A stretch of 43,717 nt of DNA from a virus: the IMG/VR virus record IMGVR_UViG_3300048586_000258, positions 1 through 43,717 of that record. One strand, 5' to 3'. This document shows positions 14,750 to 43,717 of the stretch, one piece after another. A program made the translations under genes and the position numbers. How positions within the stretch are numbered: position 1 is the stretch's first letter; each line of letters begins with the position of its first letter. The notes under the pieces were generated by a model. It did not search any database. It was not told where the DNA came from and saw only the letters and a program-made list of their open reading frames with translations.

Positions 14750-15198
14750 GCGGCATGCAGCAGATCGGGTCACGACCGCACCCGCTCGATACCCTTCCGC
14801 GCCACGAGCGCCGCGCAGCACTTGCCGCAGAGGCGATGCACCGAAAGTACGGCCAATGGGGGGCGTGGGAGACGCTCACTTTTCCGCCCGGATCAGCGGG
14901 GCGCTCTTGGGCTGCGACGTTCACGAAAGTGCATCGCAACAAGGTGTTTTCCGTTCTGGACCGCGACGATTTCAGCGGCGCGCGCCACCTGGCGGTGTCC
15001 AGTCTGAGCGGAATTCGCCCTAGTTGGCACGAGATGCAGCGGATCAAAGACGATCTCGCGGGCGAACGCGCCACGGCTGTCGAGGTTTATCCGCCGCGCT
15101 CGGAGATCATAGACGATGCCGACATGTTCCACATTTGGGTGTTGCCGGGCGCGCTACCTTTTTCGCTTTATCGCGCCTCTGAAAGGCAAACGCCGTGA
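14746..15198 (+). CDS. DUF7694-like protein
   Basis: A 150-residue soluble protein. The conserved part is residues 60-140: VHRNKVFSVLDRDD, ARHLAVSSLSGIRPSWHEMQ, RIKDDLAGERATAVEVYPPR, then DADMFHIWVLPGALPF. This pattern recurs in proteins of many alphaproteobacterial phages and prophages (DUF7694), function unknown. It overlaps both neighbours by four bases, inside the xis-int run, so it is expressed with the integrase. No membrane segment or catalytic motif seen. Confidence 0.75.
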   Translation: MSGMQQIGSRPHPLDTLPRHERRAALAAEAMHRKYGQWGAWETLTFPPGSAGRSWAATFTKVHRNKVFSVLDRDDFSGARHLAVSSLSGIRPSWHEMQRIKDDLAGERATAVEVYPPRSEIIDDADMFHIWVLPGALPFSLYRASERQTP

Positions 15199-16400
15199 CA
15201 CGTAAACCCCGCTCGCCCATCGGTGACGCCCCCTCTCGCCTGCGCCAGCGCCTCCGTACGGATGGCACCTGGCGCGTTTGGTGGGAACCTCGCGCAGCTG
15301 AGCGCGGGCTGGGCTTCGCCGTAGTCGAGCTCGATGCCGATCGCGCGGCCTGGTCGATCAAGGAAGCCCGCCGGCTGAACGCTGAGGTCGACAAGGCGAT
15401 CGAGACGGGCCAGCGCCGCGCAGCTCGCCCGACTGGGCGCACGATGTCGGATCTGATCCGGGAATATCGCCAGTCGATCGCCTTTCGCGAGGATCTCGCC
15501 CCTAAGACGCAGCGCTCCTATGGCGCGCTCCTCAATCAGATCGAGGACAAATGGGGGCACCGGCGCGCGATGGACTTCGACAAGCCGGTGATGTTCGCGT
15601 GGTACCAGGCGCTCTACAACGGCAAGAGCGCCCGGATGGCCCAGGCGCTGATCCGCCAGATGTCGATCCTGTTCAGCCATGCCGAGCTGCTCGGTTGGCG
15701 ATCGGAAGGCAGCAACCCGTGCTTCAATCTTGGTGTGCGCACCCCGCGCGGCCGCTCGAGGGTGGCGAGCTGGGATGAAATCGAGGCGCTCCTGCTGGCG
15801 GCCGAGGCGCTCGGCCGCCACGCCATGGCCCTGGCGATCCGCCTGAGCCTTTACCACGGCCAGCGGGAAACCGATGTTATCCAGGCCACGCGCGGGGCGT
15901 TTCAGCTGCGAATGGCGCGGCCGTGGGGCGAAAAAGAGGAACGGCCGACATGGGTCTGGTTCTTCCGCCGGTCCAAGCGCAAGAACGACGCTTCGCTGCC
16001 CGTCCATGCCGAAGTGATCCCCTTTCTGCGCGCAGCCCTGGCCGATGCCGGCACGGCCGAGAAGCCGCGCCTGCCCACTGATGCGCTCCTGGTCGATGAA
16101 GCGGTCGGCCGGGCCTATGACGAAGATCTGTTCGCCAAGCGCTGGCGCGAGATCCGCGCGAGGGCGGCCGAGCTCGATGGCATGGCCGACATCACCACGC
16201 TGCAGTTCCGGGATCTGCGCCGCACCTTCGGGGTGCTGGCGCGCCAGGGCGGGGCGAGCGCCGATGACACGGGCGACGTTCTCGGCAACTCGGCCGCGAA
16301 CGATCCCCAGCTGGGCGAGATCTACATGCAGCCGACTTTCGACACGACCAGCCGCGCGATCGCGGCGGTCCAGAGCCCAAAGGAGAAAAACCGGAAATGA
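15195..16400 (+). CDS. int: Tyrosine-type site-specific integrase
   Basis: A 401-residue recombinase. The N-terminal core-binding region runs to about residue 185. The catalytic part has Arg224 (HGQRETDV), basic strand FFRRSKRKN (Lys261/263), the box RDLRRTF with Arg342, and the nucleophile Tyr377 (GEIYMQP). The His of the HxxR box is Arg339 here, a substitution I recall in other integrases of this type. It inserts the phage DNA at tRNA-Asn by recombining attP (18532-18578) with the host site. It is 2.1 kb from attP, with cargo genes between. ATG overlap with the DUF7694-like gene. Confidence 0.92.
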   Translation: MTRKPRSPIGDAPSRLRQRLRTDGTWRVWWEPRAAERGLGFAVVELDADRAAWSIKEARRLNAEVDKAIETGQRRAARPTGRTMSDLIREYRQSIAFREDLAPKTQRSYGALLNQIEDKWGHRRAMDFDKPVMFAWYQALYNGKSARMAQALIRQMSILFSHAELLGWRSEGSNPCFNLGVRTPRGRSRVASWDEIEALLLAAEALGRHAMALAIRLSLYHGQRETDVIQATRGAFQLRMARPWGEKEERPTWVWFFRRSKRKNDASLPVHAEVIPFLRAALADAGTAEKPRLPTDALLVDEAVGRAYDEDLFAKRWREIRARAAELDGMADITTLQFRDLRRTFGVLARQGGASADDTGDVLGNSAANDPQLGEIYMQPTFDTTSRAIAAVQSPKEKNRK

Positions 16401-18531: not shown

Positions 18532-18578
18532 TGGCTCCGGCGGTAGGGATCGAACCTACGACCAATTGATTAACAGTC
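18532..18578 (-). other. attP core: 3' half of tRNA-Asn(GUU)
   Basis: On the minus strand these 47 bases read as the 3' part of a tRNA-Asn: anticodon loop CTGTTAA (anticodon GTT at 18574-18572), the 3' side of the anticodon stem, a T arm with GTAGG-TTCGATC-CCTAC, the 3' acceptor strand CGCCGGA, discriminator G and CCA at 18534-18532. The 5' half of the tRNA is missing, so no tRNA is encoded here. Such a fragment beside an integrase is the usual attP; integration would rebuild a complete tRNA-Asn. Confidence 0.92.
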
Positions 18579-18681
18579 GAGAGGATGGACAACAAAAACA
18601 AGTGGTTAGCTTGGCGCAAAACACCACATATTGCGTAGTCCTTCCAAAGCTCGCATTGCTCACCATAGCAGGAGCGCGCTG

Positions 18682-18798
18682 ATGGAACTGATGATTGGAA
18701 TGGCCATCGGCGCCGCGATAGTTGGGGTGATCTGGGCTTTCGGCGGTCGGGTTGAAGGGGCGATTCTCCGCTGGCTCGGCTTGGAGCCCCGCGACTAG
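18682..18798 (+). CDS. Small membrane protein at the end of the rightward block, 38 aa
   Basis: A 38-residue protein with a single hydrophobic helix (MIGMAIGAAIVGVIWAF) and a short charged tail ending EPRD. GGAG lies at a good distance before ATG 18682. It lies just beyond attP. Its TAG stop shares the palindrome CTAG with the stop of the next gene on the other strand. Function unknown; too short for family recognition. Confidence 0.6.
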   Translation: MELMIGMAIGAAIVGVIWAFGGRVEGAILRWLGLEPRD

Positions 18799-18914
18799 CA
18801 GCATGGCCCGCCCTGGCCTGGGCCGGGCGGTCCTTTGCCTTCAAGCCAGAGCGTATAGGCGACAAGAATGAGGGTAGGCGCCCCGAAGATTAGGAGCGCC
18901 CACCCCCAGGCCAT
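18795..18914 (-). CDS. Small membrane protein coupled to the tailspike, 39 aa
   Basis: A 39-residue protein: MAWGWALLIFGAPTLILVAY as one membrane helix, then a Gly/Pro-rich tail ending CC. ATG 18914 overlaps the tailspike stop by one base (TGATG), so translation is probably coupled, and it is the last gene of the leftward operon. A GC-rich hairpin (CCGCCC pairs with GGGCGG, about 18809-18834) lies inside it and may act in termination. Function unknown. Confidence 0.55.
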   Translation of the reverse strand: MAWGWALLIFGAPTLILVAYTLWLEGKGPPGPGQGGPCC

Positions 18915-21583
18915 CAGAACACCCGCGCCTCATACTGCGACGGCAGCAGCCCGAGGTTCGGGATCGAGCCAAGCTGGTTGAACCGCGTCGTGCTGATCCC
19001 GACCGTGATGACCGTCTCGGTGAGTAACCGCGTTCCGAGGAGGCGGCAGTAGATCACATCAGGGACGACAATCACCTTCTTGGTTCCAAACGTGTAGTAA
19101 CCTTGGGTTCTCAGCCACCACTCAAGCTGATTGTTCTCGAACGCATGGCGCAGGCCCTGGCCGAGAGGGCTCGTATCGGTCTCAGTGATGCGAGGCCGGG
19201 AACCAAGGGCATCGGTGTGCGTCCCTTGCAGCACAAGCCTTTGGTCTGTTTGCCACAGGAGCGGAATTTGCGACCATGACAGAACGCCGGGGTTTGTTTC
19301 GGCCATGGTCATCAGTCTGGCCCGGTCAGGGTCCACGTCCGGGTTCAGGGTTTGTGACAACTGGCGTACTAGAGCAAGATCGCCGCCGCTGTCCCAAGCG
19401 CCTGTCTCCACCAGGTTCTCGTAGCGCCAGTTGACATTAATGAAGGTCGGACTAACCACCCCGCTCAATGGCCTCCCATATGCGCCCCGGTTGATGAACC
19501 CGGTGGATAGCGCAAGCGTGGTCAGGGCCGGAGCCAGAAACAGCCCTACGTTGAAACCCTCGATCCGGGGCCGGATGAGCCAGGCATCGCCGGTATTCTT
19601 CTGGTAGATGAAACCTGTGGCTGGCTCTGCACCTTTAAGTGGCGACCTCTGGCCGATGATGTCGAAGTCGATCAAGCTGTAGTGACTGGTATATGCGATT
19701 TCAGCGCCATGCTCGCACTCCCAGATTAGCCAATCATGGAACACCGATCGGACACCATGGCCCTGATCGGGGTTGGCCTTGTGGACAGAAAGGCCCCAAT
19801 GAGTTGCGAAAACCTCATTCCGATCCGGCTTCTGGATCGGAATGCGGTTGACATCGACCGTTGACAATCCGAGGCCGACGAAAGGAACTGCATCGTCAGC
19901 AAAGGCTCCGATGGGGTCCGCAAGGATGGCCCGGTGCGCCCAAGAGACGCCAGAGTTAACGTTGCAAGCGATGTTGTCGTGAATATAGGGCGCGCGCCCT
20001 GCCATCCAAATCCCAACGCCAGCCCGGCCCGTTTCGTCAACATTGAGGTTCTTGCCGTCAGAGTTCGGGATGTTGTTGAATTTCCTTTCAGCCCCTTGAT
20101 AGACGCGCGCATTCAGGTTCCAGCGAATGTCGCCAAACTCGTCGCCATCCTCGCAGGCGATCCCGGCCCCGCCGCACTTGTAGGTGAAGTTGTTGAAGAT
20201 TTTGCCTCTGCTGGAATGAAGCGAGATACCCCATCCATCGGACTTGTGAACCATCCAGTTTTCGACAACTGCCGCATCACAGAGGCACAATTCCACGTTC
20301 TCGTAGGTGCGGCAGGGCGTCATCGGATCATCGAAGCCAGCTTGGTGTATGTGCATCGAGTACCGGCCCTTGACGTTCGATGTTGGGGTCCATCCGGTAT
20401 CTGGGCGCTTACCTCCAAGGCTGACGTAGGGAGAGAAAGCCGAGATTGCCTCGACCTGGTTCACCTTGTCGGTGCGCCCGAGGCCGATCGAGGTGCCGCC
20501 ATAGCAGAGCGCCATCATCGAGTGCATGATCGCGAAGTGGCCGCGACGGTGGACCGGGGCGCTGGCCGGCGACTTGAAGATCACGTTGCGGTCGAAGTAA
20601 CCGATCACCGTCCGCGTCTTGTTGAGCGGGGTGTCCATCGGGCGCGGGCCGCTGTGGTCGTATTGCAGGCCGCGCGGCGTCACCCCGTCCGGGTGCGTGG
20701 TGAAGGTGACGAAGTTGCCGCTGATCGCGGTGATTACCGCTTCTTCATCTTCAGGATCGTCAACAAAAACCACCACGGAACCGACCGTTCGATACCGCCG
20801 CAGGCGCGTACCGGCGATGTAGATCCTGCCCCCGACCTTCCAGCCGACAGGGGTGCCGTCAAGAAGGATGCTGGACGACCCGAGCGTCGGGTGGACCGCC
20901 GGGCGCATGTAGGGTGTCACCGTCTCGCCCCTGATCTGGACGGCCCCCATCGAGAGGAAGCCGCGCCCAAGCAGGTGTGGGTCGTTCGTCATGTCGAGGT
21001 CGGTATCCCCCGGCATCAGGAACTCGAACTTGTAGGCAGACCCGATCGGGTTCGTTTCGGTCCCGATCTTAATCATGGATCGCATGTCGCCGTTAAGCGT
21101 GTCGCAGAGCATCCGGGTCGTCATGTCGTGCTTGACCCGGAACTCGCCATCGACACGAACCCATTTCAGGCACTCGCTCGTCAGCACGTTCTCGGGGTTC
21201 GCGCAGGGCATCACATAGTCATAGAGAACCGATGCGGTCTGACAGATCAGAACCTTATCCCCGGCCAGCGGGATGCCGCTCGGATACCAGACAGTCGGGT
21301 CCGACCAGTTGCCGGATTTCCATGCAACCTTGGTTGCATCGGGTCGCGGCGTCAGAAGGTTCTGTGCCGCCTCCTCGGCATACCACTTGAACCCCTGCTG
21401 ATACATATACTGATAGGGCAGCGCCTTGGCGGCAGCCGCGATTTCAGCCGCTTCCGTAGGTGGCGGGGGCGGGGGCGGCGGTTCCTCACCCGAACCGATG
21501 CCCTCCGATGCCTGAAGGCTGCCCGAAACGGGCCTGAGAAAGCCTCCTATCTTGGCGTAAACTTTTCCAGACGCATGACGCAT
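18914..21583 (-). CDS. G8-domain beta-helix tailspike / candidate depolymerase
   Basis: An 889-residue virion protein. After a short head and eight Pro residues (35-42), residues 84-190 form a G8 domain: KSGNWSDPTVWYPSGIPLAG, then DKVLICQTASVLYDY, a WVRVDGEFRVKHD strand and IKIGTETNPIGSA. Next comes a long repetitive beta-strand region with right-handed beta-helix features (ENVELCLCDAAVVENWMVHK, GGAGIACEDGDEFGDIRWN) to about residue 750. G8 plus beta-helix is the layout of animal CEMIP/TMEM2 proteins linked to hyaluronan breakdown. Here it probably binds or cuts a surface polysaccharide. No catalytic residues can be named. It follows a glycine-rich adhesin and lies outside the main tail cluster. 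Confidence 0.75.
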   Translation of the reverse strand: MRHASGKVYAKIGGFLRPVSGSLQASEGIGSGEEPPPPPPPPTEAAEIAAAAKALPYQYMYQQGFKWYAEEAAQNLLTPRPDATKVAWKSGNWSDPTVWYPSGIPLAGDKVLICQTASVLYDYVMPCANPENVLTSECLKWVRVDGEFRVKHDMTTRMLCDTLNGDMRSMIKIGTETNPIGSAYKFEFLMPGDTDLDMTNDPHLLGRGFLSMGAVQIRGETVTPYMRPAVHPTLGSSSILLDGTPVGWKVGGRIYIAGTRLRRYRTVGSVVVFVDDPEDEEAVITAISGNFVTFTTHPDGVTPRGLQYDHSGPRPMDTPLNKTRTVIGYFDRNVIFKSPASAPVHRRGHFAIMHSMMALCYGGTSIGLGRTDKVNQVEAISAFSPYVSLGGKRPDTGWTPTSNVKGRYSMHIHQAGFDDPMTPCRTYENVELCLCDAAVVENWMVHKSDGWGISLHSSRGKIFNNFTYKCGGAGIACEDGDEFGDIRWNLNARVYQGAERKFNNIPNSDGKNLNVDETGRAGVGIWMAGRAPYIHDNIACNVNSGVSWAHRAILADPIGAFADDAVPFVGLGLSTVDVNRIPIQKPDRNEVFATHWGLSVHKANPDQGHGVRSVFHDWLIWECEHGAEIAYTSHYSLIDFDIIGQRSPLKGAEPATGFIYQKNTGDAWLIRPRIEGFNVGLFLAPALTTLALSTGFINRGAYGRPLSGVVSPTFINVNWRYENLVETGAWDSGGDLALVRQLSQTLNPDVDPDRARLMTMAETNPGVLSWSQIPLLWQTDQRLVLQGTHTDALGSRPRITETDTSPLGQGLRHAFENNQLEWWLRTQGYYTFGTKKVIVVPDVIYCRLLGTRLLTETVITVGISTTRFNQLGSIPNLGLLPSQYEARVF

Positions 21584-21585
21584 GA

Positions 21586-23340
21586 TTACACCGCCGATGG
21601 CGCTGAGGCGCAGTCAGAGACACGGAAACGATAGATGATTGCCGCACGCCGACCCGGACGAGTGTTGCCCGCGTTGAGGGTGGGGTCGGATCGCGCTCCC
21701 GAACCAGCGCCGTAGTCATCGACGCCAAGCCCGGGATCGCCCGCAGAGACTTCGCCGTCGCCGCAGCCGCCCGCGCCGTAGTATTTGCCAGCGCCGCCCT
21801 CGATCAGCGAGAAGCGGCCATCGCCACCCTTGCCACCCTTGCCTGTGGTATTGTTGCCATCGCCACCCGCGCCACCAGAACCGCCGCCACCACCAGAGGC
21901 ACGAAGGCCAGAGGCTGAACCCGCGCTATTTCCGCCCTCGAAGCCGCCGCCCGTCGTCGCGCCGCCCAACCCAACATCGGACGACGCGTTCGTTTGATAT
22001 GCCGCGCCGGAGCCGTTGAAGCCCGCGATGCCGGGTTTCGGAGTGTTGACATTGTTGGACACCCCACGGCGACCGCCCTGGTAGGTGACGCCGTTGACGA
22101 CAAGATCGCCGCCGTTGCTGCCGTCCGTGCTGGCCGTCGTGACACCGGCACCCGGCCCGCCGAGGGAGAACGCAATCGCGCCAATTTCCAGAAGGTCCGT
22201 CTCGTCCTCGTCGGTCTGTCCGCCAGAGGCCCCACTAGTCCTCGTCCGTCCTGCTGACGCGCCAGCCGCCTGATAAAGACGCCACACCGGAAGGTCTGCA
22301 CCGGAAATTCCAATCTCGCCAGTGATCGTCGTTCCCGATGTTTCCGAGCCAAGGATCTTCAAGAGGTAGTAGTCTACGCCGCCCTCGGTGATCGTCGTCA
22401 GTTCATTGCCAGCCGGGTAGGTGACGACAGAAAGGTTGGCGAGTTGCTCGACGGCCCCGAAGGTTCGGTAGCTGTTGGGTCCAATCTTCCTGACGACAAC
22501 TTCATCGCCTTGGTTCGTAATCTTGAAACGACCGGACACGCCATTGATTGTCACGGGCGCAATCGCGCGGAGGATCACGTCTCCGGTGTTGAGACGCAGC
22601 ACCGGCCATTTCCACCCCACCGGGGCCGAGACATCCGCGTTCGCCGGAAGCGTCACCGTCATCGCAGAGGTATTGTTCGCCCAAAGTGGGCGTTCCCCGT
22701 AAATGTCCAAGATCGACGGGGTGTAAGTTGTTCCCTCTTGCAGGTTGTAGTTCTCGACCGATCCGGGCTGGCCCAAGAACAGGTCGTTCGGCCCCATGAA
22801 GGCAGGGATTTCACCAGCGTCCAGCCCGGTCCAGACTACGACCTGAGAAAGCAGGTATTGCGGGGGGCGCGGCGTATTGGGATCGCCGTTGCAGTTGACG
22901 ACTTCGACCGGCAACTCGCCATTCTTGGCATAGCGGGTGTCGTTGTATTGCGAGGCGGAACCGAGGCCGGGCAGGCCTTCCAGATCGTTGTAGGCACCGT
23001 TGAGGGCCACAGGGTGAAGATCGGTCCACAGCACGATCCGGTTCCAGATCGCGGCGCCAGTCGGTACAGCCCCGGCGAACCAAGCACCCACTAGCCCGGT
23101 TGTCCGAAGGAAGATCGAGCCTATGCCATAGCCCTGGGTTTGGTCGTCTCCGGCGGTCGGATCGACGTCGCCCTCAAACTTATTCTTGCGGCCCTCGAAG
23201 AACGCGCCTGACTTGATCCGGGACACGCCTCTTGCCCAGCTGCTCGGCCCGGTTTTGCGGGCCGAAGGGACATGCACCTCAGCCGCGTCGGCCTGGGCGG
23301 GGGTGATGAGTGTCGTTTCTTCTGACGTTTTCCGCGCCAT
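21586..23340 (-). CDS. Glycine-rich tail adhesin / receptor-binding protein
   Basis: A 584-residue protein from ATG 23340, which overlaps the previous stop (TAATG). The N-terminal 130 residues (RVSRIKSGAFFEGRKNKFEG) may attach to the tail. The middle is beta-rich. The last 200 residues are dominated by Gly with Ser, Asn and Ala (GGGGGSGGAGGDGNNTTGKG; SAGSASGLRASGG) before a final YRFRVSD. This resembles the glycine-rich tip domains of T-even-type gp38 adhesins, where packed polyglycine helices present variable loops to the receptor. The likeness is of composition, not of sequence I can align. The upstream open frame is a shadow of the gene before. Confidence 0.65.
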   Translation of the reverse strand: MARKTSEETTLITPAQADAAEVHVPSARKTGPSSWARGVSRIKSGAFFEGRKNKFEGDVDPTAGDDQTQGYGIGSIFLRTTGLVGAWFAGAVPTGAAIWNRIVLWTDLHPVALNGAYNDLEGLPGLGSASQYNDTRYAKNGELPVEVVNCNGDPNTPRPPQYLLSQVVVWTGLDAGEIPAFMGPNDLFLGQPGSVENYNLQEGTTYTPSILDIYGERPLWANNTSAMTVTLPANADVSAPVGWKWPVLRLNTGDVILRAIAPVTINGVSGRFKITNQGDEVVVRKIGPNSYRTFGAVEQLANLSVVTYPAGNELTTITEGGVDYYLLKILGSETSGTTITGEIGISGADLPVWRLYQAAGASAGRTRTSGASGGQTDEDETDLLEIGAIAFSLGGPGAGVTTASTDGSNGGDLVVNGVTYQGGRRGVSNNVNTPKPGIAGFNGSGAAYQTNASSDVGLGGATTGGGFEGGNSAGSASGLRASGGGGGSGGAGGDGNNTTGKGGKGGDGRFSLIEGGAGKYYGAGGCGDGEVSAGDPGLGVDDYGAGSGARSDPTLNAGNTRPGRRAAIIYRFRVSDCASAPSAV

Positions 23341-24535: not shown

Positions 24536-25146
24536 GGTTGCACCGCGTTGGGTCGAGCGGCCCACTTGCGATATGCGGCGGCGAGCTTGGTATGGTAGCC
24601 GTGCTTCGCGTAGCCAGGCCCGTTGTAGCCTCGGGCGAAACCGGACCAGTCGTGGCGACGCAGATCGTCGTCAAGACCCTCGGAAATGATGAACCGGATC
24701 ATCGCCAGCAGGTGGCGCTCCTCATCCACCAGGAAATCGGTGACCATGTCCTCTGCAGTCCGGTATCCCGCCGCCTTGCAGTTGAACCCCATGATCTGAC
24801 CAAGACCCCAGGAGGCGCTGCGCAGAGCGGCCGGGCGGTCGATCTTGATGGCTGCCAGCAGTCGCGGGTAGCTGTCCGCCGGGTATGGCTTCTGGCCCCA
24901 GCGGGGGTAGGCGATGCCCTGCGTCTCCGCTATGCGCCGCTTTCCCTCGCCAAGCTCACGCCAGAACACGTGCGGCTCGAACAGCATTTTCAGTCGGCCG
25001 GAACTGTCGCGGCCGGAACCTGCGGCCTCCACTTCGACCAAGGCGCGGATCTCATCCTCTCCCACGCCAATCAGCTTGCCGAGACGGCCGTAGTCCCAGG
25101 CGTCGATCTGTTTCATTGGCCCAAAGAACTGCATCAGGGCTTGCAT
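24532..25146 (-). CDS. N-acetylmuramidase endolysin
   Basis: A 204-residue enzyme with the N-acetylmuramidase domain (PF11860-type): IRALVEVEAAGSGRDSSGRL (residues 33-52) with candidate catalytic Glu38 or Glu40, MLFEPHVFWREL, SASWGLGQIMGFN and WSGFARGYNGPGY near the end. No signal peptide or signal-anchor is evident, so release through a holin is expected. ATG 25146 has GGGAG before it and overlaps the HNH gene by 13 bases. It cuts the glycan strand of peptidoglycan; spanins follow. Confidence 0.9.
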   Translation of the reverse strand: MQALMQFFGPMKQIDAWDYGRLGKLIGVGEDEIRALVEVEAAGSGRDSSGRLKMLFEPHVFWRELGEGKRRIAETQGIAYPRWGQKPYPADSYPRLLAAIKIDRPAALRSASWGLGQIMGFNCKAAGYRTAEDMVTDFLVDEERHLLAMIRFIISEGLDDDLRRHDWSGFARGYNGPGYAKHGYHTKLAAAYRKWAARPNAVQP

Positions 25147-25664
25147 GAACTTCTCCCGTGGTTCTGGTGGTAGCCGTGGAGGACTTCGGCGGCTTTGCGG
25201 GCGGCCACTGCTTCATCGAACGAGCTGAAGCTGCCAAGGACGATGGTCCGATTGTCGACGCCGATCGTCGCTTTCCAGGTGTGCCACTTGGTGAGCGATA
25301 CGCCTGGATGCCCGCTGGTGTTGTTCGATGAGATCATGCGATTGCGCATATTCTCCGTGCGAGAAACGTCGCGGAGATTGACCCAGCGGTTATCGCTGCG
25401 GTTGCCGTTCTCGTGGTCGATGTCTTCCGGCTCGAGGCCGGTTTCCATCTTCCAGATCACGCGGTGCGCATAGAGCAAGACCCAGTCGATCCGGCCCTGC
25501 AGGTAGCCACGTTCGATTGTTGTGAACGCGGGCTTGCCTGCCCACCGACCGTTCCACTGCACGGTCCCGGCCGGATCCTGGCGCCAGAACAGAGCGCCAG
25601 TTTCGGGGTCGTAGCGAAGGCGCAGCAAGAGGTACTCTTGCGAGAAATCTGCCAGGCCGCTCAT
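25134..25664 (-). CDS. HNH endonuclease with AP2-like DNA-binding domain
   Basis: A 176-residue protein. The HNH part is AHRVIWKMETGLEPEDIDHE, NGNRSDNRWVNLRDVSRTEN, with the DHENGN Asp-His pair and the NL motif. The C-terminal SGHPGVSLTKWHTWKATIG, then GSFSSFDEAVAARKAAEVLH, is an AP2-type domain, as in many homing endonucleases. It is wedged between a membrane protein gene and the muramidase, with ATGA overlap at its start. Probably a free-standing homing endonuclease. Its codon use is slightly less GC-rich than that of the muramidase. ATG 25664 fits; the upstream part of the frame is a shadow. Confidence 0.88.
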   Translation of the reverse strand: MSGLADFSQEYLLLRLRYDPETGALFWRQDPAGTVQWNGRWAGKPAFTTIERGYLQGRIDWVLLYAHRVIWKMETGLEPEDIDHENGNRSDNRWVNLRDVSRTENMRNRMISSNNTSGHPGVSLTKWHTWKATIGVDNRTIVLGSFSSFDEAVAARKAAEVLHGYHQNHGRSSCKP

Positions 25665-26077
25665 TTCCGCCACCACCGCATGAGGCGATCGAAGATGTGG
25701 CCGTGCGGATAGAAGGGCGCCTTCCAAAGCGGCCAGCTCGATCGCTCCTCCTCGGGGATCAGGAGCTGCAGCGCCTTCAACAGGTGGTAGCCCGCGAACA
25801 GGAGCAAGAGATCGAAGATGATGTTGACGCGGGTCCAGCCCGTGGCCTCGCCCCAGCTGGCCCAGGTGCCAGGCGCGGCCGCGTCGACCAGGGTAGGAAC
25901 GACGTCCCAGTAAAGGACGCGGAACACCACGGCCCAGATGATGCCAGAGACGCCCATGGCCAGGTGCATGGTCGCGTCGCGCTCGCGCTGCATGGCCCAG
26001 CCCACCAGGCCGCGCCAGATAATCAGAAGGACGATGACCGTCCCGATCGCGAACGCCTCATTTACCCAGTGCATCAT
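25661..26077 (-). CDS. Multi-pass membrane protein, holin candidate, 138 aa
   Basis: A 138-residue membrane protein with hydrophobic segments at about residues 8-28 (FAIGTVIVLLIIWRGLVGWA), 40-60 (AMGVSGIIWAVVFRVLYWDV) and 85-105 (VNIIFDLLLLFAGYHLLKAL). The tail is rich in Trp, Arg and Pro. Its position just before the endolysin makes it the best holin candidate, though two other small membrane proteins precede it. Starts by overlapping the 55-residue gene by 20 bases. Confidence 0.65.
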   Translation of the reverse strand: MMHWVNEAFAIGTVIVLLIIWRGLVGWAMQRERDATMHLAMGVSGIIWAVVFRVLYWDVVPTLVDAAAPGTWASWGEATGWTRVNIIFDLLLLFAGYHLLKALQLLIPEEERSSWPLWKAPFYPHGHIFDRLMRWWRK

Positions 26078-27326: not shown

Positions 27327-28727
27327 CTAAAAGACGACGACCCAAAGGGCGTTGGTGTTGGCCGGACGGGCTTCGCCGCCACCAGAAAAGTCGGTGGTGA
27401 AGGGGTGGCCGTGATCGCCGATGTAGGACGTGGCTTCGGTGCTCTGGCCGCTGTAGACGGTTTTGCCGCTGCCGCCGGCCGCGGTGCCCGGCGTCCCTGT
27501 CCGGATGAAGCTGTGGTTGTGGCCGCCGGTTGCGCCGGTGTGCCCGGTGTGCTGGTGCGAGAGGTTCTGACTGCCCTGCAGCGTGGCCGCTGCGCGCCCT
27601 GCGTCGACGCCGGCCCCGTCGTCCAGGCCACGCACGAACCGGCCGCGCCAGTCGGGCAGGCTGGCCGTGGTGGAGCCGTTACCTGGTCCATACTGGGCGG
27701 GCGTTTTCACGCCCTCGCTGGCAGCCACAAAACCGCTTGCCACGGCCGAAGCCCATAGCTCTGGGTAGCTCGCTCGCGAGAAGGTTGCCCCGTTCAGTTT
27801 CAGGCGGCCGGGCGGCGCAGTGGTGCCGAGATAGAGCTCGACGGTGCCGGGCTGAGGCAGGCGGTCGGCGATGCCGAGGTTGACAACCGCCGTTGGCTTG
27901 CTGGCCAGAAACTGCAGGTTGTCTGAATTATTCATGTCGCCGGTGCCGGCCCCGGGCGCGCCGGGCGGCATGTAGACCTCGATCTTTCCATCGCCAAAAT
28001 CGGCGGCAATGGTCGTCGCGATATGCGCGATCTTGGTGTGGTATTGGGTGTTGTTCACCCCATAGAGGAATACGTGGCCGATGCTGTAGAGGATGCCTGA
28101 CGTCCAGTTGCCCTTGAACTGGACGACGCCGGCCTGCGCAGCTTGGGCGGCCACCTTGGCGGCATTGGCATCAGCGGCGGCCACAGTCGCAGCCTGGGCG
28201 GCCGCGACCGCTGCGGCGCCATTGGCCTGAGCGTCCTCGATCGCCGTGGCCGTCGGGCCCGCAACGGGCTGGCCGTCCTCGAACATCACAACCCTGCCGT
28301 TGACCGGCGTGAAGGGATTGAGCGGCGCGGTGGTGCTGCGCAGGGTGCGGCCGAGCGTCACCTCAAGCGCCTTGGTGACCTCGGCCCGCTCCTGGGCGAT
28401 CATGGTCAGACGATCGAGCTGGCGCTCGAGGGACCGCTCGCGCGCGCCTTGCGTCGCACCCCAGCCCTGCTCGAGCGCTGTGGCTCTGGTGATGGTCAGC
28501 GTCCAGCCCATGTATCCCGCTGCCGTCGGGGCCGAGAGGGTGAGGTTGCCGGAGACAAGGCTTTCCTCGGGCGACACGGTGAAGTTGCCGGGCGCCAGCT
28601 CGACCACGCTGTTCCCGTCGGACACGGTCGCGACGATCGAGCCCTCTGTGTAGGGATGCGGGATCGCGAAAGGCCCGGTGCCGGCGATCGTGTAGGGCGG
28701 GGCTGGCTCGAATGCGTCGATGGTCAT
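27327..28727 (-). CDS. Tail fibre with T7-type N-terminus and collar-like tip
   Basis: A 466-residue protein. Residues 1-150 (PYTIAGTGPFAIPHPYTEGS, ATQGARERSLERQLDRLTMI) match the head-binding part of T7 gp17-type fibres. An Ala-rich shaft follows (VAAAQAATVAAADANAAKVA). Then a tail-collar region, RLKLNGATFSRASYPELW, and a tip with repeated His: LSHQHTGHTGATGGHNHSF, ending GGGEARPANTNALWVVVF. HxH motifs in such tips coordinate metal in T4 gp12-like fibres. Overlaps the ejection gene before it (ATGA). Confidence 0.85.
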   Translation of the reverse strand: MTIDAFEPAPPYTIAGTGPFAIPHPYTEGSIVATVSDGNSVVELAPGNFTVSPEESLVSGNLTLSAPTAAGYMGWTLTITRATALEQGWGATQGARERSLERQLDRLTMIAQERAEVTKALEVTLGRTLRSTTAPLNPFTPVNGRVVMFEDGQPVAGPTATAIEDAQANGAAAVAAAQAATVAAADANAAKVAAQAAQAGVVQFKGNWTSGILYSIGHVFLYGVNNTQYHTKIAHIATTIAADFGDGKIEVYMPPGAPGAGTGDMNNSDNLQFLASKPTAVVNLGIADRLPQPGTVELYLGTTAPPGRLKLNGATFSRASYPELWASAVASGFVAASEGVKTPAQYGPGNGSTTASLPDWRGRFVRGLDDGAGVDAGRAAATLQGSQNLSHQHTGHTGATGGHNHSFIRTGTPGTAAGGSGKTVYSGQSTEATSYIGDHGHPFTTDFSGGGEARPANTNALWVVVF

Positions 28728-31222
28728 TGGCTGCCTCCGAAGGCGTTGGAAAGGTCGGGCAGGCGGACGCCGTCATTGGATCCGCGTGTGGGCAGGAACG
28801 GCTGGGTGCCGTAGTCTCGCTCGAGCTGTTTCAGCTTGCGGCGCATGGCGGCCTCGGCCTGCGGGTCGAGGAACGCCTGCAGCTCGTCGGCCACCAGGCG
28901 CGAATAGGCGGCGCGCACCGGCCAGGCCGATGAGAAAAACGGGGTGTTCTGCCGCACCGTGTTGGCGATGTCGCGCCCCACGGCCGTCGGCTTGCCGTTG
29001 ATCGCGCTGGTCACGTTCGACGCAACCGGGCCGATGACGTCGCCGATCGCGCCGGCCACGGGCCCGGCCAGCGTCTCACCGATGCCCCCGCCCACGCGGC
29101 TCGTCTCGGACTGGAAGAAATCGCCGAAGATGCCGAGCCCGCCACCCTGGAAGGTCGCGGCCAGCCAGAACTTCCCATCCGTCATTGGCCGCGGATCGTT
29201 GCCCTTGGCCAGCTCTTTCAGCTGGATCGCGAGCGCGCCCAGGACCAGAAGCATGGCGGACATCTGCGCCGCATACTTCGCCTTCGCGACCGGGGTGGGC
29301 AGGTTCATAAACCGCCGGTACTGGCCCAGCATGAGCGACATGGTGAAGCTCTTGTAGGCCGTCGAGGAGCGCAGGAGCTCGCCTGAGAAGCTGCCGGCCG
29401 GGGCGGTGCCCTGCAGGAGCGCGCGGCCCTCGAGGCTGGCCGTGGGCACGGCGAACTCGAGCTGCTCCTGCATGGCCATCTGCAGGCGCAGCGCCAGGCC
29501 CTCGGCCTCGACGCGGGGCAGGGCACGCTGTGTTTCCAGCCAATAGAACGGCGATATGAAATTCGCCCCGCCTGGTTCGCGGAACTGGGTCGAGGGATCG
29601 CGCAGGAGATCCCAGTCGGCCGCCGTGATGCCGCGCGCCTGGAACAGCTCGCGCAGGGGCGCGTCGATCTGCGCGAAGGGCCGCCCGGCATTGTCCGCCA
29701 TGAAGCCCGCGAATTCCATCTGGAACGCGATCTTGCGCATGTCGGTAATGAACGAGAGGCCGGTCGCCCGAAGGGTGAAGCCGGCCAACCGCTCGGGGAT
29801 CCCGGTGCCGAACATCTGGCCGAAGAACCGGGCCGAGCCGCCGCCGGCATCCGCCAGGGTCTGCGCGACATAGCCCATGCGCGCGGCCGTCTCGCGGGTG
29901 GCATGGCTGGCGGTCAGCTTCACCGATCGGGCGAGCACGTTGCCCGCCGACATGCCCATGGTCTGCGCCGCCATGGTGATCGTGGCCACGTCCGTGACCG
30001 ATGACAGCACGGCGCTGCCCAGCTGGATCGACGTCAGAACCGCCCGGGTGCCGCCGAAGAACCGGGCCACGGCCACGCGCTCGGCGCGGTTGGCGGTGCC
30101 GTCCTGGTGCGCCAGCATCGCCTTGGCGACGGCCGCCTGCGTGGTGACGCGGGCCTCGAGCTTGGGATCGCTGAGCGCGGCCGCGCGTTTCCGGCCCACC
30201 TGCTCGGCATAGGTCAGCCCGGCGCGCGGGTTCGGGCCCAGGACGCGCATGAGGGCGGCGTCGCGGGCCATGCCGTGCAGGCCGTTTATCATGGCCGAGA
30301 AGGGGTCGGCCGTGCCGAACTGGGCGTTATAGTCCAGCCAGTCGGAGCCGCTCTTGAAGTGCATGACGCGGTGCTCGCCGCGCTGGTTGTAGAGTGCCTT
30401 GCCGCCAAAGCTCAGGGATGGATCGCGATCATCCCAGCCGCCCGACACGATCCCGTCATAGACATCTTTGAGGAACCGCTGCGTCGCACTGCGCGGCGGT
30501 ACCTGGCCGGGCTGTGCGCTGAACGGCTTGCCGGTGGAGAGATCAGGAATCCTATCCCAGGCGAGGCGCGTCTCGATCGCCTGCGCCCAGGCGTCGAAGC
30601 CGGCGCGGCGCAGCTGGCCCGCGTCATGGGCATGGGGCACGCCATAGTCGGCCAGGTTGCCGATGTCGGCGCCCAGGCTGTTCAGGGTGCGGCGCATCCG
30701 CTGTTGCTGGGCCCGCACTGCCTTGGCCAGCGTGGCGGCCGAGGCGCTGCCCGTCGCCTCGCCGTGCAGCTCGCGCACCAGGTCGCGCAGGAGCGCCTTG
30801 TTGCGGGTGGATCCCGTCACGCCCAGGCCAACCTGCTCGAGCACCTGGCGCAGCCCGGCGTTGATCGACGCCTCGTAAGCCTCGGTCAGCGACTGGACGC
30901 TTTCGCCTTTGAAGCCGCTGCCTTCCGAGTAGGCCATGAGGTTGCGGATCGCGAGCGCAGGATCTGGCGAGGTTTCGACCAGGTTGCGGATCCGCCGCAT
31001 CGCCTGCAGCTGGTTCACCACCTTGTGGTAGCGCGACCGTTTCGCCTGGGCGGTGGCCTGTTTCAGATCCTTGGCGGCCAGAGCGGCCGCCTGGCCACGC
31101 GGCATGATCGTTTGGTACCGCGCAAAGAGCTGGTCGAACGCCTTCCGCGCGGCGATGCCGCGGTTGCGGTCGATCTCGCCGAAGTCCACTCCACGCGCCA
31201 GGCAGTCGGCCATGCTGGTCAT
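28724..31222 (-). CDS. Internal virion (ejection) protein, gp16-related, 832 aa
   Basis: An 832-residue, mostly helical protein. The front half has many charged heptads (LAAKDLKQATAQAKRSRYHK), the middle contains GSDWLDYNAQFGTADPF and MINGLHGMARDAALMRVLGP, and the back has hydrophobic segments (MLLVLGALAIQLKEL). This pattern matches the C-terminal part of the gp16-like or polyvalent ejection proteins of podoviruses, encoded here as a separate gene. It is probably packed in the head with the two proteins before it and forms the channel across the cell envelope. Overlaps the 1228-residue gene by four bases. Confidence 0.75.
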   Translation of the reverse strand: MTSMADCLARGVDFGEIDRNRGIAARKAFDQLFARYQTIMPRGQAAALAAKDLKQATAQAKRSRYHKVVNQLQAMRRIRNLVETSPDPALAIRNLMAYSEGSGFKGESVQSLTEAYEASINAGLRQVLEQVGLGVTGSTRNKALLRDLVRELHGEATGSASAATLAKAVRAQQQRMRRTLNSLGADIGNLADYGVPHAHDAGQLRRAGFDAWAQAIETRLAWDRIPDLSTGKPFSAQPGQVPPRSATQRFLKDVYDGIVSGGWDDRDPSLSFGGKALYNQRGEHRVMHFKSGSDWLDYNAQFGTADPFSAMINGLHGMARDAALMRVLGPNPRAGLTYAEQVGRKRAAALSDPKLEARVTTQAAVAKAMLAHQDGTANRAERVAVARFFGGTRAVLTSIQLGSAVLSSVTDVATITMAAQTMGMSAGNVLARSVKLTASHATRETAARMGYVAQTLADAGGGSARFFGQMFGTGIPERLAGFTLRATGLSFITDMRKIAFQMEFAGFMADNAGRPFAQIDAPLRELFQARGITAADWDLLRDPSTQFREPGGANFISPFYWLETQRALPRVEAEGLALRLQMAMQEQLEFAVPTASLEGRALLQGTAPAGSFSGELLRSSTAYKSFTMSLMLGQYRRFMNLPTPVAKAKYAAQMSAMLLVLGALAIQLKELAKGNDPRPMTDGKFWLAATFQGGGLGIFGDFFQSETSRVGGGIGETLAGPVAGAIGDVIGPVASNVTSAINGKPTAVGRDIANTVRQNTPFFSSAWPVRAAYSRLVADELQAFLDPQAEAAMRRKLKQLERDYGTQPFLPTRGSNDGVRLPDLSNAFGGSQ

Positions 31223-34200
31223 GCCGCCACCCCCGTCGCTTCGATCGCGCAGGCTTGCACGAAGGCATCGAATTGCGCGTCCTGGTCGAGATCGTCCAGG
31301 AGCTCGGCCGCGGTGCGGGTCGTGCCGTCGGTCAGCTCGACCTCGAGATCTCCGAACGCCTGGCGCAGCTCGGCGGTATTGACTTCGCCAGGCGCGGCCT
31401 CCATGTTAGAAGTGTCCCCGCGAGAAGGAGGGACATTTCCCATGACATTCGACAGCTTTGTATCTTGGGAGTACCGCCCTGCGGTGCTGTTTCGGGAACC
31501 TTCCGGCGCGTTCGTGGCGCTCGCCATGCTCGAGCCGGGAACCGACTGGGTGTCGGTCGACGCTCTCGACGTAGCCCATACCGCCAACGTGCTCGGATCC
31601 GAGGAAGCGTTCCGCGGTTTCTTCGAAAGAAGCTGGGGCGCGCTCGACATTCCGTCGGCCGAGAAGGCCACTGAACTGAGCACGTCCCGGTCGGCTGCGG
31701 CGTAAAGCGCCACCTCGCCCTCGTATAGCTCGATCGCGCGCGGATCCCTGCGATCTAGGGCACGGCGCTGCGTGTAGGACGCGGTCCCCTTCTTCTTCGC
31801 GTCGAACATGCCCCGGGTCCAGATCTGGACCTCGCTCAGCATCCCGTCGTCATGCCGCACGATCAGCTTGCGATCGACATAGCCCTCGGGTTTCCTCGCC
31901 CACCCCTCATCGACCAGGTCGAATTCCTCGGCCAGCTGCGCGACCAGCTGCTCGGCCTCCTCGAGATCGGTCACGATGAAGCCGCCGCGCGAAACGTCGG
32001 TCAGCTGGCGCGGGCTGGCATAGCTCTTGCGGGCGAGCTTTTCCTCAGTGGTAGCCCGCTCTTTCAGCCCGGGATCCTTGAACGTGATGCCGAGCTCGCG
32101 GCCGATGCGGTTGCCGGCCTCGCTGAGCCTGGCCTGGGCATCGGCCGCCAGGGTGTAGAGCGTGTCGAGATCATCGAAGGGCTGGGCCATCGCCAGGCGC
32201 GGAACGAAGGTGACCGGATCCGCCTCAGCCAGGATCTCGGCCGCGGCGGGCGCTGCCGGCGTGCGGATCTCGGCCGCGATCTCCTGGTCGGCCGCCTCGG
32301 CCTCGAGCGATTGCGCGCCTTCCTCGTAGCCCTCGTCCACCAGGTCTGCGCGCAGCTCGGGTGCCGCGCCCCGCGGCCGGCCGATGTCGTCGGGTAGATC
32401 GCCGAAGATCTTCGGGTCGATCGCGCGCAGCACGTCGGCCGGGCCCGGCCCGTCGAACATGCCGCCGGTCGCGCCGGCCTTGCGTGCATCTTCCGCGTAG
32501 CGCGCCAGGAAGCCTGCGACCTCGTCGGCCGGGGCCGCCTTGCCCTCGCGCCAGAACTTGCGCACCAGGGCGGCGGTGAGCGGTGCCACGGGGCCCTCGA
32601 GGAGATCGACCTCCTCGAGGAGCTCGGACACGGCCCGGGCGATGCTCAGCCCTTCGCGGCTCGACAGCTCGCGGGCGGCGCCGATCAGGCGCATCGCGTC
32701 CAGGACATAAGGCGAGACGTCCATTTCAGGGCGCACCAGGCCGGCCTCGATGTCGGCCCGCAACGCGGCCCAGCTGGGCGCGGCGCGATCGAGCGCCTCC
32801 ATGAGCGATTTCAGGGGGCCGGCGTCCGTCTCGGTGAACCGGGCCAGGATCTCGGAATCCGGCCAGGCGCGGGCAAAGAGCGCCTCGCGCAGTTGCCGCT
32901 GGCCCAGGTTGTTCAGCACGCCGCCCTCGCCGAACATCGCATTGCGCGCCGATCGAGGCAGGCCGGAAAGGGCGGCCTTCACGAACTCGCCATTCGACGC
33001 CGCGGTGAGCGGCTGGGTCGGATCGAGGCGCATGAGCACCGGCGATGTCATCGCCCGGCTCGAGGCGCGCGCGACTTCCGTGGGCGTCATCTGCGCAACG
33101 CCGCTGTCCTGGGCTTCGACCACGAACCGGCGCAGCTCGTCATCGGAGAGGGCGCTGCGCCGGCGGGCCACAAGAACGGGACGCTCGACGCCCTCGGGGA
33201 TCGCGAAGCCGGCTGCCTCGATCTGGCTGCGGTAGGCGCCGCTGCGATCGGGGAACTGGTCGTAGGCCCGCGCGATCGCCGCCACGCGGCCGTTGCCGCT
33301 TTCGATCATGCCGTCGGGCCCGACGATCGGCGCGCCGCGATCGGCCGTCGGGGCCGGCATGAGGCGCATGGGATCGAGCTGGGCGGCCGTGTCGGAAATC
33401 CAGGCATCGGATGCCTGGCGGCTGCGATCGCGCGGCTGGAAGTCTCCGCTCGCCGCGCGCAGCTGGGAAATGTCGAGCACCTCGTATTCGACGTCGATCC
33501 GGAAATCTTCGCCGGCCGTCACCTGGCCCTCGCCGGTGTAACCCCGGGTCGTCGGCGAATAGGGGGCAGCATCGCCAGAGATCGCGACGCCGTCATGCTT
33601 CGGCACGGCGCCGCCCTCGTACTGGCGCTGCAGAGAAACCGCATATCCGATGCGCCGCTCGAGGTGCGGGATCCCCGGGCGCTCGTAGTATTTCGACACG
33701 AACGCGGCCGCCTCGCGCGCGTCCTTCGCCTGGCTGATCCTGGACCAGGCGCCGGCCTCGCTGGTCTTTAGCTCGTGATCGACAAAGGCGATCTGCGTGT
33801 CGAGATCGCTCGGGCTCTTGCCGCGCTTCTGCGCGAACGCCTCAAGCGCCCGGCGGCGGTCGTTCCACTGCGCGATTCCATAAGCCGCGCCGCCGTCTCC
33901 AACTGCATCGGTGCGCAGGCTGGGCCCGCTCTCGACCATGAAGTTACCGACAAAGCCAGAGGCGATATGCGGCTCGTAGCCCAGCTCGAGGAACTTGCCG
34001 AACACATAGCCCGCCCGGTTTGTGCGGGGCGAGGCATTGCCGGCCGGGGTGTAATCAAACTTGATCGGGCCGGCTGGCGACTGGACCTCGTTCGGCGGCG
34101 GTGCGATCACCTCCTGCACGGTCGGATCGCCGCGCAGCTGCGCCTCGGCCGTGTCGACCGCAACCTCTGCGTCGATCTCGTCCATGTCGGCCGGCTTGGC

Positions 34201-34905
34201 GTCCAGGACGCCGCGGCGCCGGGCGGTGAGCATCCCGTAGCCTTTCAGGATACCCACCACGCCGGTGGCAAAGGTGCCGCCCAGCAAGGCGCCCATGCCG
34301 ATGCGGCCGAGCACGTCGGGCGTGGGCAGATCGAGATCCTCGGCCACCTGGAATTCGCGCGGCAGCACGGCCGCCTCGCCGATCGCGCCAAGAGCGGCCT
34401 CGCTCACGATCGTCCGGAGCGCGCCGCTCGAAACCCCGAAGGGCAGGAGCATCAAGCTGGTCTGGTCCGTCATCGCCCGCGCGGATCCGCCCAGGAACTC
34501 GGCAAAGCCGCCGCCCGGCTGGTCGAGGATTGACTGCGCCTCCTCGAGCTCGGCCTTGCGCTCGCCGTCGATCGCCAGGTCGAATTGCTCGCGCGAGAGG
34601 GGCAGGGTGCCGTACTTGGTCGGGTTGGTCGGTACCTCGCGAGAAACCTCGTCAAGGACCATGTCCTCAAAATCAATCCAGTTGTTCTCGTAATCCCACC
34701 GGCGGTTCTGGATGCGCATCTTCGCTTCCGAGCCGAGCATCCCGTACATTTCGGTGGCGAGCCCGCGGCGCTTGTCCTGGGTGTAATTCCAGGCATCGGT
34801 GCGGATCGTCTCGGCTTCCCAGGCGGCGCCCATGACATCCCAGCTGCTCACGTCCATGTCGGGCGGCGCGGGCAGGTTTTCCTCGGGCAGGGGCAGATCC
34901 GTCAC
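31219..34905 (-). CDS. Large ejection protein with tail-lysozyme and DdrB/ParB-like domains, 1228 aa
   Basis: A 1228-residue multidomain virion protein. Residues about 300-400 are a phage tail-lysozyme domain (GNFMVESGPSLRTDAVGDGG with candidate Glu near 322, AYGIAQWNDRRR), which could open a hole in peptidoglycan during ejection. Residues about 445-610 resemble DdrB-like ParB domains (YEVLDISQLRAASGDFQPRD, IVGPDGMIESGNGRVAAIAR). A charged region follows. Residues about 1068-1166 look foreign, low in normal helix pattern and antisense to a plus-strand ORF (31442-31705). The last 60 residues (FGDLEVELTDGTTR) again look native. Overlaps neighbours on both sides. The role follows T7 gp16; domains are assigned by eye. 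Confidence 0.83.
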   Translation of the reverse strand: MTDLPLPEENLPAPPDMDVSSWDVMGAAWEAETIRTDAWNYTQDKRRGLATEMYGMLGSEAKMRIQNRRWDYENNWIDFEDMVLDEVSREVPTNPTKYGTLPLSREQFDLAIDGERKAELEEAQSILDQPGGGFAEFLGGSARAMTDQTSLMLLPFGVSSGALRTIVSEAALGAIGEAAVLPREFQVAEDLDLPTPDVLGRIGMGALLGGTFATGVVGILKGYGMLTARRRGVLDAKPADMDEIDAEVAVDTAEAQLRGDPTVQEVIAPPPNEVQSPAGPIKFDYTPAGNASPRTNRAGYVFGKFLELGYEPHIASGFVGNFMVESGPSLRTDAVGDGGAAYGIAQWNDRRRALEAFAQKRGKSPSDLDTQIAFVDHELKTSEAGAWSRISQAKDAREAAAFVSKYYERPGIPHLERRIGYAVSLQRQYEGGAVPKHDGVAISGDAAPYSPTTRGYTGEGQVTAGEDFRIDVEYEVLDISQLRAASGDFQPRDRSRQASDAWISDTAAQLDPMRLMPAPTADRGAPIVGPDGMIESGNGRVAAIARAYDQFPDRSGAYRSQIEAAGFAIPEGVERPVLVARRRSALSDDELRRFVVEAQDSGVAQMTPTEVARASSRAMTSPVLMRLDPTQPLTAASNGEFVKAALSGLPRSARNAMFGEGGVLNNLGQRQLREALFARAWPDSEILARFTETDAGPLKSLMEALDRAAPSWAALRADIEAGLVRPEMDVSPYVLDAMRLIGAARELSSREGLSIARAVSELLEEVDLLEGPVAPLTAALVRKFWREGKAAPADEVAGFLARYAEDARKAGATGGMFDGPGPADVLRAIDPKIFGDLPDDIGRPRGAAPELRADLVDEGYEEGAQSLEAEAADQEIAAEIRTPAAPAAAEILAEADPVTFVPRLAMAQPFDDLDTLYTLAADAQARLSEAGNRIGRELGITFKDPGLKERATTEEKLARKSYASPRQLTDVSRGGFIVTDLEEAEQLVAQLAEEFDLVDEGWARKPEGYVDRKLIVRHDDGMLSEVQIWTRGMFDAKKKGTASYTQRRALDRRDPRAIELYEGEVALYAAADRDVLSSVAFSADGMSSAPQLLSKKPRNASSDPSTLAVWATSRASTDTQSVPGSSMASATNAPEGSRNSTAGRYSQDTKLSNVMGNVPPSRGDTSNMEAAPGEVNTAELRQAFGDLEVELTDGTTRTAAELLDDLDQDAQFDAFVQACAIEATGVAA
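31442..31705 (+). CDS. Antisense ORF with strong RBS inside the ejection-protein gene, 87 aa
   Basis: A plus-strand frame, the opposite direction to every gene for more than 12 kb around. GAAGGAGGG lies eight bases before ATG 31442, and TTGACT (31379-31384) could be a -35; the -10 is weak. The 87-residue product has normal protein composition (FDSFVSWEYRPAVLFREPSG, AFRGFFERSWGALDIPSAEK) and resembles nothing I know. On the other strand the ejection protein reads through it as an odd Ser/Asn/Pro-rich stretch. It looks like an inserted cassette (a moron) expressed independently, possibly in the lysogen. Confidence 0.62.
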   Translation: MTFDSFVSWEYRPAVLFREPSGAFVALAMLEPGTDWVSVDALDVAHTANVLGSEEAFRGFFERSWGALDIPSAEKATELSTSRSAAA

Positions 34906-43388: not shown

Positions 43389-43690
43389 TCGTCATCCTCC
43401 ATCAGAGTGTTCATGTCCTCAAAGCTCGTGCCCATCAGGGCGAGGAGCTGCACGGCGAAGTCGCGTCGGCCCGCCTCGTAGGCGAGCCGGTGGGGATCGA
43501 GCTGGTCGAGCTCGGGGACCCCGTCCTGCAGCGTGACCGCCTGCATCTGCAGCACCCCGCCCAGGCGGATGATGTCCTGCTGCAGGCGGCTGTCGTCCCG
43601 CGCGACCTTGGACCAGCGCCGCGCAACCTCGATCGCCTGGGCGCGGCGCGGGAACAGGGCCCGCAGAACGGTGAGGCGGTTCCAGATCAT
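43385..43690 (-). CDS. Bbp19-like protein, complete copy, 101 aa
   Basis: A 101-residue protein whose C-terminal part (DPHRLAYEAGRRDFAVQLLA, residues about 66-85) carries the A-x-E/A-G-R-R core of the Bbp19-like family, found in BPP-1-type head clusters with unassigned role. The upstream part is helical and basic (FPRRAQAIEVARRWSKVARD). It spans the junction: its first 100 bases are repeated at 1-105 with one amino-acid difference (Ser34 here). ATG 43690 overlaps the end of the 77-residue gene. Stop overlaps the scaffold start. Confidence 0.8.
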   Translation of the reverse strand: MIWNRLTVLRALFPRRAQAIEVARRWSKVARDDSRLQQDIIRLGGVLQMQAVTLQDGVPELDQLDPHRLAYEAGRRDFAVQLLALMGTSFEDMNTLMEDDE

Positions 43691-43717
43691 TCCGGTACAG
43701 CTCCGACCTCAAGCAGG
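43586..43717. repeat. Right copy of the terminal direct repeat
   Basis: Repeat partner of bases 1-132; 131 of 132 positions agree, the exception being T at 43591. Joining the ends here gives a circle of about 43,585 bases in which all genes at the edges become complete. Confidence 0.9.
43687..43717 (-). CDS. 3' end of the 77-aa gene (second copy, cut by window edge)
   Basis: These bases repeat the last ten codons or so of the gene complete at 102-335 (ending LEVGAVPE). It is present only because of the terminal repeat and should not be counted as an extra gene. Confidence 0.8.
   Translation of the reverse strand, partial: LLEVGAVPE

Follow-up and report, generated by a model that had tools for sequence, protein, structure and literature searches.

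The structure closest to the protein described here is that of human TMEM2, in which, according to the structural passages of PMC10206443, a single uninterrupted beta-helix begins with the G8 region. The enzymatic status of TMEM2 is disputed: the passages of the same report that deal with activity describe no detectable degradation of hyaluronan by the ectodomain and an unassigned active site (PMC10206443), and human TMEM2 is also described as inactive in the relevant part of a second paper (PMC10276149) but as active in that of a third (PMC10474455). In the window, by which we mean the whole 43,717-nucleotide stretch analyzed, an ORF on the minus strand (18914..21583, ATG start) encodes a protein of 889 residues, hereafter P0001. 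The original prediction had read this ORF as a G8 domain followed by a beta-helix, had placed it among receptor-binding genes, and had suggested that the product is a surface-polysaccharide depolymerase resembling animal hyaluronan-degrading CEMIP. As detailed below, its reading of the ORF and of the gene context is borne out, and the depolymerase proposal needs to be recast. We propose that P0001 probably serves a temperate podovirus-type phage of Rhodobacterales as its receptor-binding tailspike, gripping and most likely cleaving the exopolysaccharide (EPS) of the host.

The phage and its close sibling

The window comprises the record IMGVR_UViG_3300048586_000258, a single virus of 43,717 bases with podovirus-type genes for a head-tail adaptor, terminase, major head protein, tail tube, internal virion proteins, collar fibre and endolysin. 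Bases 11-60 recur at about 43596, near the other end (regions 1-132 and about 43586-43717), and the two ends of the record, between which no exact overlap was found, are adjacent in a sibling phage; hence the genome, though classed as linear, is probably circular or terminally redundant. It encodes an integrase (15195..16400, plus strand; phrog_1, 3.3e-26), and beside the spike gene lies the 3' end of a tRNA gene (18532..18563, minus strand), the probable core of the attachment site, whose sequence occurs unchanged in 316 of 390 Rhodobacterales genomes. Prophages related to the chassis were recovered from five of the 390 Rhodobacterales genomes searched; tail protein B is 51-57% identical in four of them and matched in two pieces (38 and 60%) in the fifth, and reaches only 28-34% in 7 of 200 genomes from the order of genome G020. 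None of these five prophages has a G8 spike, the region being occupied by other genes. No direct link to a host emerged in the form of a spacer or of a lysogen of this phage, and it is the prophage relatives and the attachment-site tRNA end that point to Rhodobacterales as hosts.

The P0001 gene lies in the tail operon, 2 nt behind the gene for a Gly-rich fibre protein (21586..23340, minus strand) and downstream of the genes for a collar-type tail fibre (27327..28727, minus strand; PF07484, 5.1e-10; phrog_1858, 1.6e-28), the endolysin and tail proteins, which agrees with the predicted setting among receptor-binding genes. Its G+C content (0.58-0.61) is below that of most of the phage genome. 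An ATG overlapping the spike stop codon (TGATG) opens a reading frame, read by hand, for a predicted membrane peptide of 39 residues (18795..18914, minus strand) ending in GGPCC; its 36-residue counterpart in the sibling has the same end and an otherwise different sequence. Elsewhere on the minus strand, an HNH endonuclease gene (25134-25727) between the tail and lysis genes is likely a mobile insert, with a sibling match limited to 23 residues, and the endolysin beside it has no counterpart in the sibling by tblastn. A 1228-residue protein (31219-34905, minus strand) combining phage tail lysozyme and ddrB-like ParB domains is probably an ejected virion protein.

Most structural proteins of the sibling (IMGVR_UViG_3300048835_000287; 42,103 bases) are 95-100% identical to those of the window, including the portal (98.7%), TerL (99.0%), major head protein (97.7%), tail tube A (100%) and v684 (98.1%); the collar fibre is 90.8% identical. 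The sibling spike (888 residues) occupies the same slot behind the same 2-nt gap but is only 30.7% identical to P0001. The adjacent fibre, whose sibling version gives a weak Gly_rich_2 match, is 36.5% identical, so that fibre and spike have been replaced together; no nucleotide alignment with the sibling was obtained over window positions 18613-23033. Despite this divergence the sibling spike keeps most of the residues that are invariant across the family, and in alignment A2 the two spikes have insertions in common that the four remaining sequences lack. P0001 thus sits in a tail slot whose occupant varies between near-identical phages. Such divergence within a near-identical chassis, with the candidate site retained, is the behavior expected of receptor-binding proteins.

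Domain architecture and fold

Pfam searches of P0001 with E-values up to 1 recovered G8, CEMIP_beta-hel and Beta_helix only, and thus no GG/lectin-like domain. The G8 region spans residues 99-223 (20915..21289, minus strand; PF10162, E 0.0011, compared to 1e-16 to 1e-19 in homologues) and the CEMIP beta-helix region residues 405-548 (19940..20371, minus strand; PF24606, E 1.7e-4), the same order as in CEMIP and TMEM2. Both scores fall under the curated cut-offs (19.3 bits against 22.9 for G8; 21.9 against 27.3 for CEMIP_beta-hel), whereas all four homologues tested lie above both, with G8 scores of 61-68 bits (8.4e-19 for G8 and 1.7e-9 for CEMIP_beta-hel in homologue L010). The kinship of P0001 to these domains is therefore established through its homologues, and as these align to it over nearly its full length (query 30-888) and TMEM2 is the best match of its structural model, the sub-threshold matches are more than chance. 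Searches of PHROGs and NCBIfam with P0001 returned no family match, and no recognizable signal peptide, PA14 or RTX-type part was found in it.

Residues 1-37 (21473..21583, minus strand) form a small beta-hairpin (DSSP strands 8-12 and 15-18, at low confidence) followed by a Pro-rich hinge; bacterial matches begin only at about residue 30-40, and the first 70 residues have no match in phage records. We consider this stretch a candidate attachment piece. The C-terminal beta-rich domain (residues 763-889; 18917..19297, minus strand), delineated in alignment A2, is common to the Rhodobacterales homologues, and tblastn matches of bacterial homologues run to residue 888.

An AlphaFold2 monomer model of P0001 (pLDDT 83.4, pTM 0.87) contains a right-handed beta-helix, as do the folds that it matches. 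Its best match is human TMEM2 (8c6i), with a VIA-align Z of 23.6 over 490 residues at 2.9 A; Foldseek likewise ranks TMEM2 first (E 8.3e-10), with a modest TM-score of 0.42 over the query. In agreement with this, a profile of 80 sequences (alignment A3) retrieved human TMEM2 alone from the PDB (E 1.8e-11), with E-values up to 1 allowed. P0001 accordingly combines the fold of the TMEM2 ectodomain with kinship to it at the profile level, and the G8/CEMIP-type fold that was to be looked for by structure prediction and comparison is present. Because the G8 region of TMEM2 is itself the start of a continuous helix, the predicted fusion of G8 to a beta-helix is better described as one fold. After TMEM2 the model matches AlgE4, other beta-helix enzymes and tailspikes, the nearest PDB folds being mostly polysaccharide lyases, hydrolases and epimerases. 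The spike would presumably be a trimer of the modelled monomer.

Relatives in bacterial exopolysaccharide clusters

Scans with the P0001 sequence alone found no relative in viral contigs, phage records or genome contigs, but tblastn against plasmids returned nine records, seven of them from Rhodobacterales. An alignment built on the plasmid homologues then retrieved 107 relatives in GTDB contigs, the best 80 of which constitute the genome loci analyzed here. Among these best 80 of 107 the close relatives of P0001 come from Rhodobacterales, Parvularculales and cyanobacteria, the closest being Rhodobacterales proteins that align almost from end to end at about 30-33% identity. The G8/CEMIP family is common in Rhodobacterales. 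In the tree the two spikes group together next to a Rhodobacterales group, on branches so long that their exact origin among the bacterial sequences is unsure. The alternative that the homologues are prophages of this phage's kind was rejected, as loci L002-L090 contain no other genes of the phage (tblastn, 1e-4). A plasmid of Leisingera sp. NJS201 (L005:1263-7954) has two copies under the same G8 protein accession, the second being split across two overlapping frames, as by a frameshift.

Six of the Rhodobacterales plasmid homologues sit in annotated polysaccharide clusters, with neighbors encoding glycosyltransferases, chain-length proteins, O-antigen ligases, sulfotransferases or export functions. 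Using 24 seed proteins from the plasmid G8 loci, we found an EPS-type gene within 9 kb at 37 of the 80 homologue loci (best 80 of 107), but at none of 34 control regions taken from these contigs (35 stretches had been chosen, one of which does not exist); the origin of the seeds favors clusters of the plasmid G8-locus type. The corresponding fraction among those of the best 80 loci with full flanks is 27 of 51. Fisher tests give p = 7e-8 and 2e-8 respectively, values that overstate the significance because related genomes are not independent. The seeds gave no match near the other 43 of these 80 loci. Of the Pfam markers used, PF00534 or PF02563 occurs within 10 kb in at least 20 of 48 genomes, sampled from 50 of the 80 loci (L010-L055, L065, L068, L070 and L077, with L015 left out). 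By eye, one control region (L107) holds a glycosyltransferase among the PF00534 matches listed.

The association is uneven across the family. In the tree group that contains the nearest rows to the phage, at least 11 of 13 Rhodobacterales rows have an EPS marker within 10 kb as judged by eye; L011 and L015 have none among the matches listed. In the Parvularculales branch the EPS seeds mostly yield no match, or weak ones of WecB-like type, but PF00534 is found within 10 kb in at least eight genomes (G022, G025, G028, G032, G033, G034, G038 and G041). One part of the family thus shows a strong link to EPS, which is weaker or missing in the rest.

Among viruses, the relatives of P0001 in IMG/VR are the sibling spike and one protein of a myovirus-type contig, and there is no G8 protein among 50,697 phage records; these scans relied on short peptide patterns or tblastn and may miss more distant copies. 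The myovirus-type contig (L090:7886-10771) encodes a 961-residue G8/CEMIP-type protein that opens with a signal-peptide-like stretch and closes with an Ig/cadherin-like domain. Its gene lies between spanin-like genes and a tail gene, and the protein is perhaps an exported EPS enzyme of the phage. Our search of open-licence PMC papers found no paper on a phage G8 protein.

A conserved candidate active site

Positions strictly invariant in alignment A3 include E280, H310, R332, R370, N403, R407, Y408, H411, H413, H456, E478, N489, N537 and W621. TMEM2 has the same residue at the counterparts of E280, H310, R332, R407, Y408, H411, H413, H456, E478 and N489; it differs at R370 and N403, and N537 and W621 fall outside the alignment with it. 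From this set we single out R407, Y408, H411, H413, H456 and E478 (20150..20365, minus strand), invariant in 80 of 80 aligned proteins and shared with TMEM2, as a candidate active site whose catalytic role is suggested by conservation. The genome and viral scans used patterns over residues 405-415 and 450-459, which in part predetermines the invariance there; these patterns played no role in finding the sibling spike, reached through a chassis gene, or TMEM2. A3 omits genome loci L050 (frame break), L067 and L087 (both short), and a further alignment, A4, holds 70 of its 80 rows, the other 10 having been removed by hand. Outside the search patterns, 14 polar columns are invariant in the other 78 rows of A3; P0001 keeps 11 of them, the sibling spike 12, and both keep 9. 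For 18 non-polar columns of the same kind the numbers are 17 and 14. Polar columns are therefore conserved about as well as structural ones (11-12 of 14 versus 14-17 of 18), and not better.

By DSSP, H354, H413, H456 and E478 lie at or just past the end of the first strand on four successive rungs, a placement that would stack them as a ladder along one edge of the helix. The catalytic residues of AlgE are given as Y149-xx-D152-x-H154 in the relevant passage of PMC7385640. We considered whether Y408-xx-H411-x-H413 takes the place of this motif and dropped the idea, since beta-helix registers slip. A fragment model of homologue L012, beginning at the equivalent of G406, aligns from residue 117 of AlgE4, one rung earlier, and from residue 227 of AlgG, in disagreement with the AlgE4 register. 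For AlgG this comparison used D317, taken from the entry title, and H319, which we take to be a site residue. TMEM2 is absent from the 50 VIA-align matches listed for the L012 fragment, whereas Foldseek ranks it first. As the beta-helix fold occurs in both lyases and hydrolases, the chemistry may be of either type.

These residues might instead serve binding, with P0001 acting as a lectin-like adhesin that holds polysaccharide without cutting it. Conserved polar residues are compatible with this, as is the account of the TMEM2 ectodomain in the activity passages of PMC10206443, where hyaluronan degradation went undetected and no active site could be assigned. We consider a purely binding spike rather unlikely, as an invariant set of His, Glu, Arg and Tyr is kept in two spikes only 31% identical, and the nearest PDB folds are predominantly enzymes acting on polysaccharides.

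A probable tailspike directed at host exopolysaccharide

The host-binding slot, the TMEM2/CEMIP fold and residues, and the frequent location of relatives in slime-making clusters together indicate that P0001 probably binds and cuts the slime of its host. We envisage a spike built of a short N-terminal piece, a G8/CEMIP-type right-handed beta-helix and a C-terminal beta domain, which may have been taken over from, or share ancestry with, secreted bacterial proteins often encoded in EPS clusters. Located in the virion, it would grip a particular host EPS along the helix and cleave it, most likely at the site comprising R407, Y408, H411, H413, H456 and E478, allowing the virion to pass the slime layer. 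Exchange of the spike between sibling phages would then change the polymer recognized.

A second alternative is that P0001 is an EPS-modifying protein outside the virion, either freed when the cell lyses or produced by lysogens in a form of lysogenic conversion. Bacterial homologues do have type I secretion tails or PA14/Ig-like domains, and the signal-peptide-like start of the myovirus-type copy, which follows a spanin gene, implies that some phage G8 proteins may be secreted. P0001 itself has no recognizable signal peptide, PA14 or RTX-type part, its gene follows that of a fibre in the tail operon after only 2 nt, and both have been replaced jointly in the sibling; we regard this alternative as unlikely. 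Acquisition from a eukaryote of an animal-type, hyaluronan-specific enzyme, which the top structural rank of TMEM2 and its sharing of most invariant residues could suggest, is highly improbable given that the closest sequences are Rhodobacterales proteins (about 30-33% over nearly the whole length), that the spikes lie beside these in the tree and that P0001 has no detectable GG/lectin-like domain.

Of the depolymerase originally predicted, we retain a polysaccharide target, made likely by the EPS neighborhoods of homologues and the replacement of the spike, together with the CEMIP-type fold and the tailspike position. We abandon the likeness to an animal hyaluronan enzyme, for the relatives are bacterial, the GG/lectin-like domain was not detected and hyaluronan is no obvious host polymer. 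The animal framing misleads, the family being common in Rhodobacterales and often encoded near EPS genes; the data are better described by a tailspike of CEMIP fold whose kin are bacterial proteins of EPS clusters. Going further, it is possible, and we offer it tentatively, that Rhodobacterales phages recruited an EPS-processing enzyme of their hosts, a member of the CEMIP/TMEM2 family, as an exchangeable tailspike, and that R407-Y408-xx-H411-x-H413, H456, E478 and N489, kept through this exchange, mark a catalytic site common to all members of the family, among them human TMEM2 and CEMIP.

One protein family would thus serve both the EPS clusters of the host and the phages that cross that EPS. 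Compact phage and bacterial relatives, lacking lectin-like domains, make both the activity of TMEM2 and the position of its active site testable through mutation of a few named residues, and their genetic setting names the likely class of substrate, host EPS. The family is also a source of candidate depolymerases for Rhodobacterales slime.

Comparison with known systems

P0001 resembles TMEM2 (8c6i) in its continuous right-handed beta-helix that includes the G8 region, and the RN, GH, GRYxxHxH, H, ExxxE and N positions of TMEM2 and CEMIP/KIAA1199 align to those of the phage family. TMEM2, however, is a membrane-anchored cell-surface protein, and its GG/lectin-like domains were not detected in P0001. 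In sequence the likeness to a Ruegeria conchae protein (WP_260026581.1) reaches 33.6% identity over residues 77-680 (E 2e-67). The G8 proteins of Rhodobacterales EPS clusters share with P0001 a homologous C-terminal domain but carry PA14, cadherin/Ig-like or type I secretion parts that it lacks, and P0001 in turn has a short N-terminus of its own. The A-module of the mannuronan C-5 epimerase AlgE4, also an EPS-modifying enzyme, is the second-best fold (Z 20.9 over 321 residues at 3.0 A). With Sf6, P22, Det7, LKA1 gp49 and phi29 gp12 P0001 shares a right-handed beta-helix in a phage receptor-binding protein, although no sequence relation to them was found and PHROG assigns it no family.
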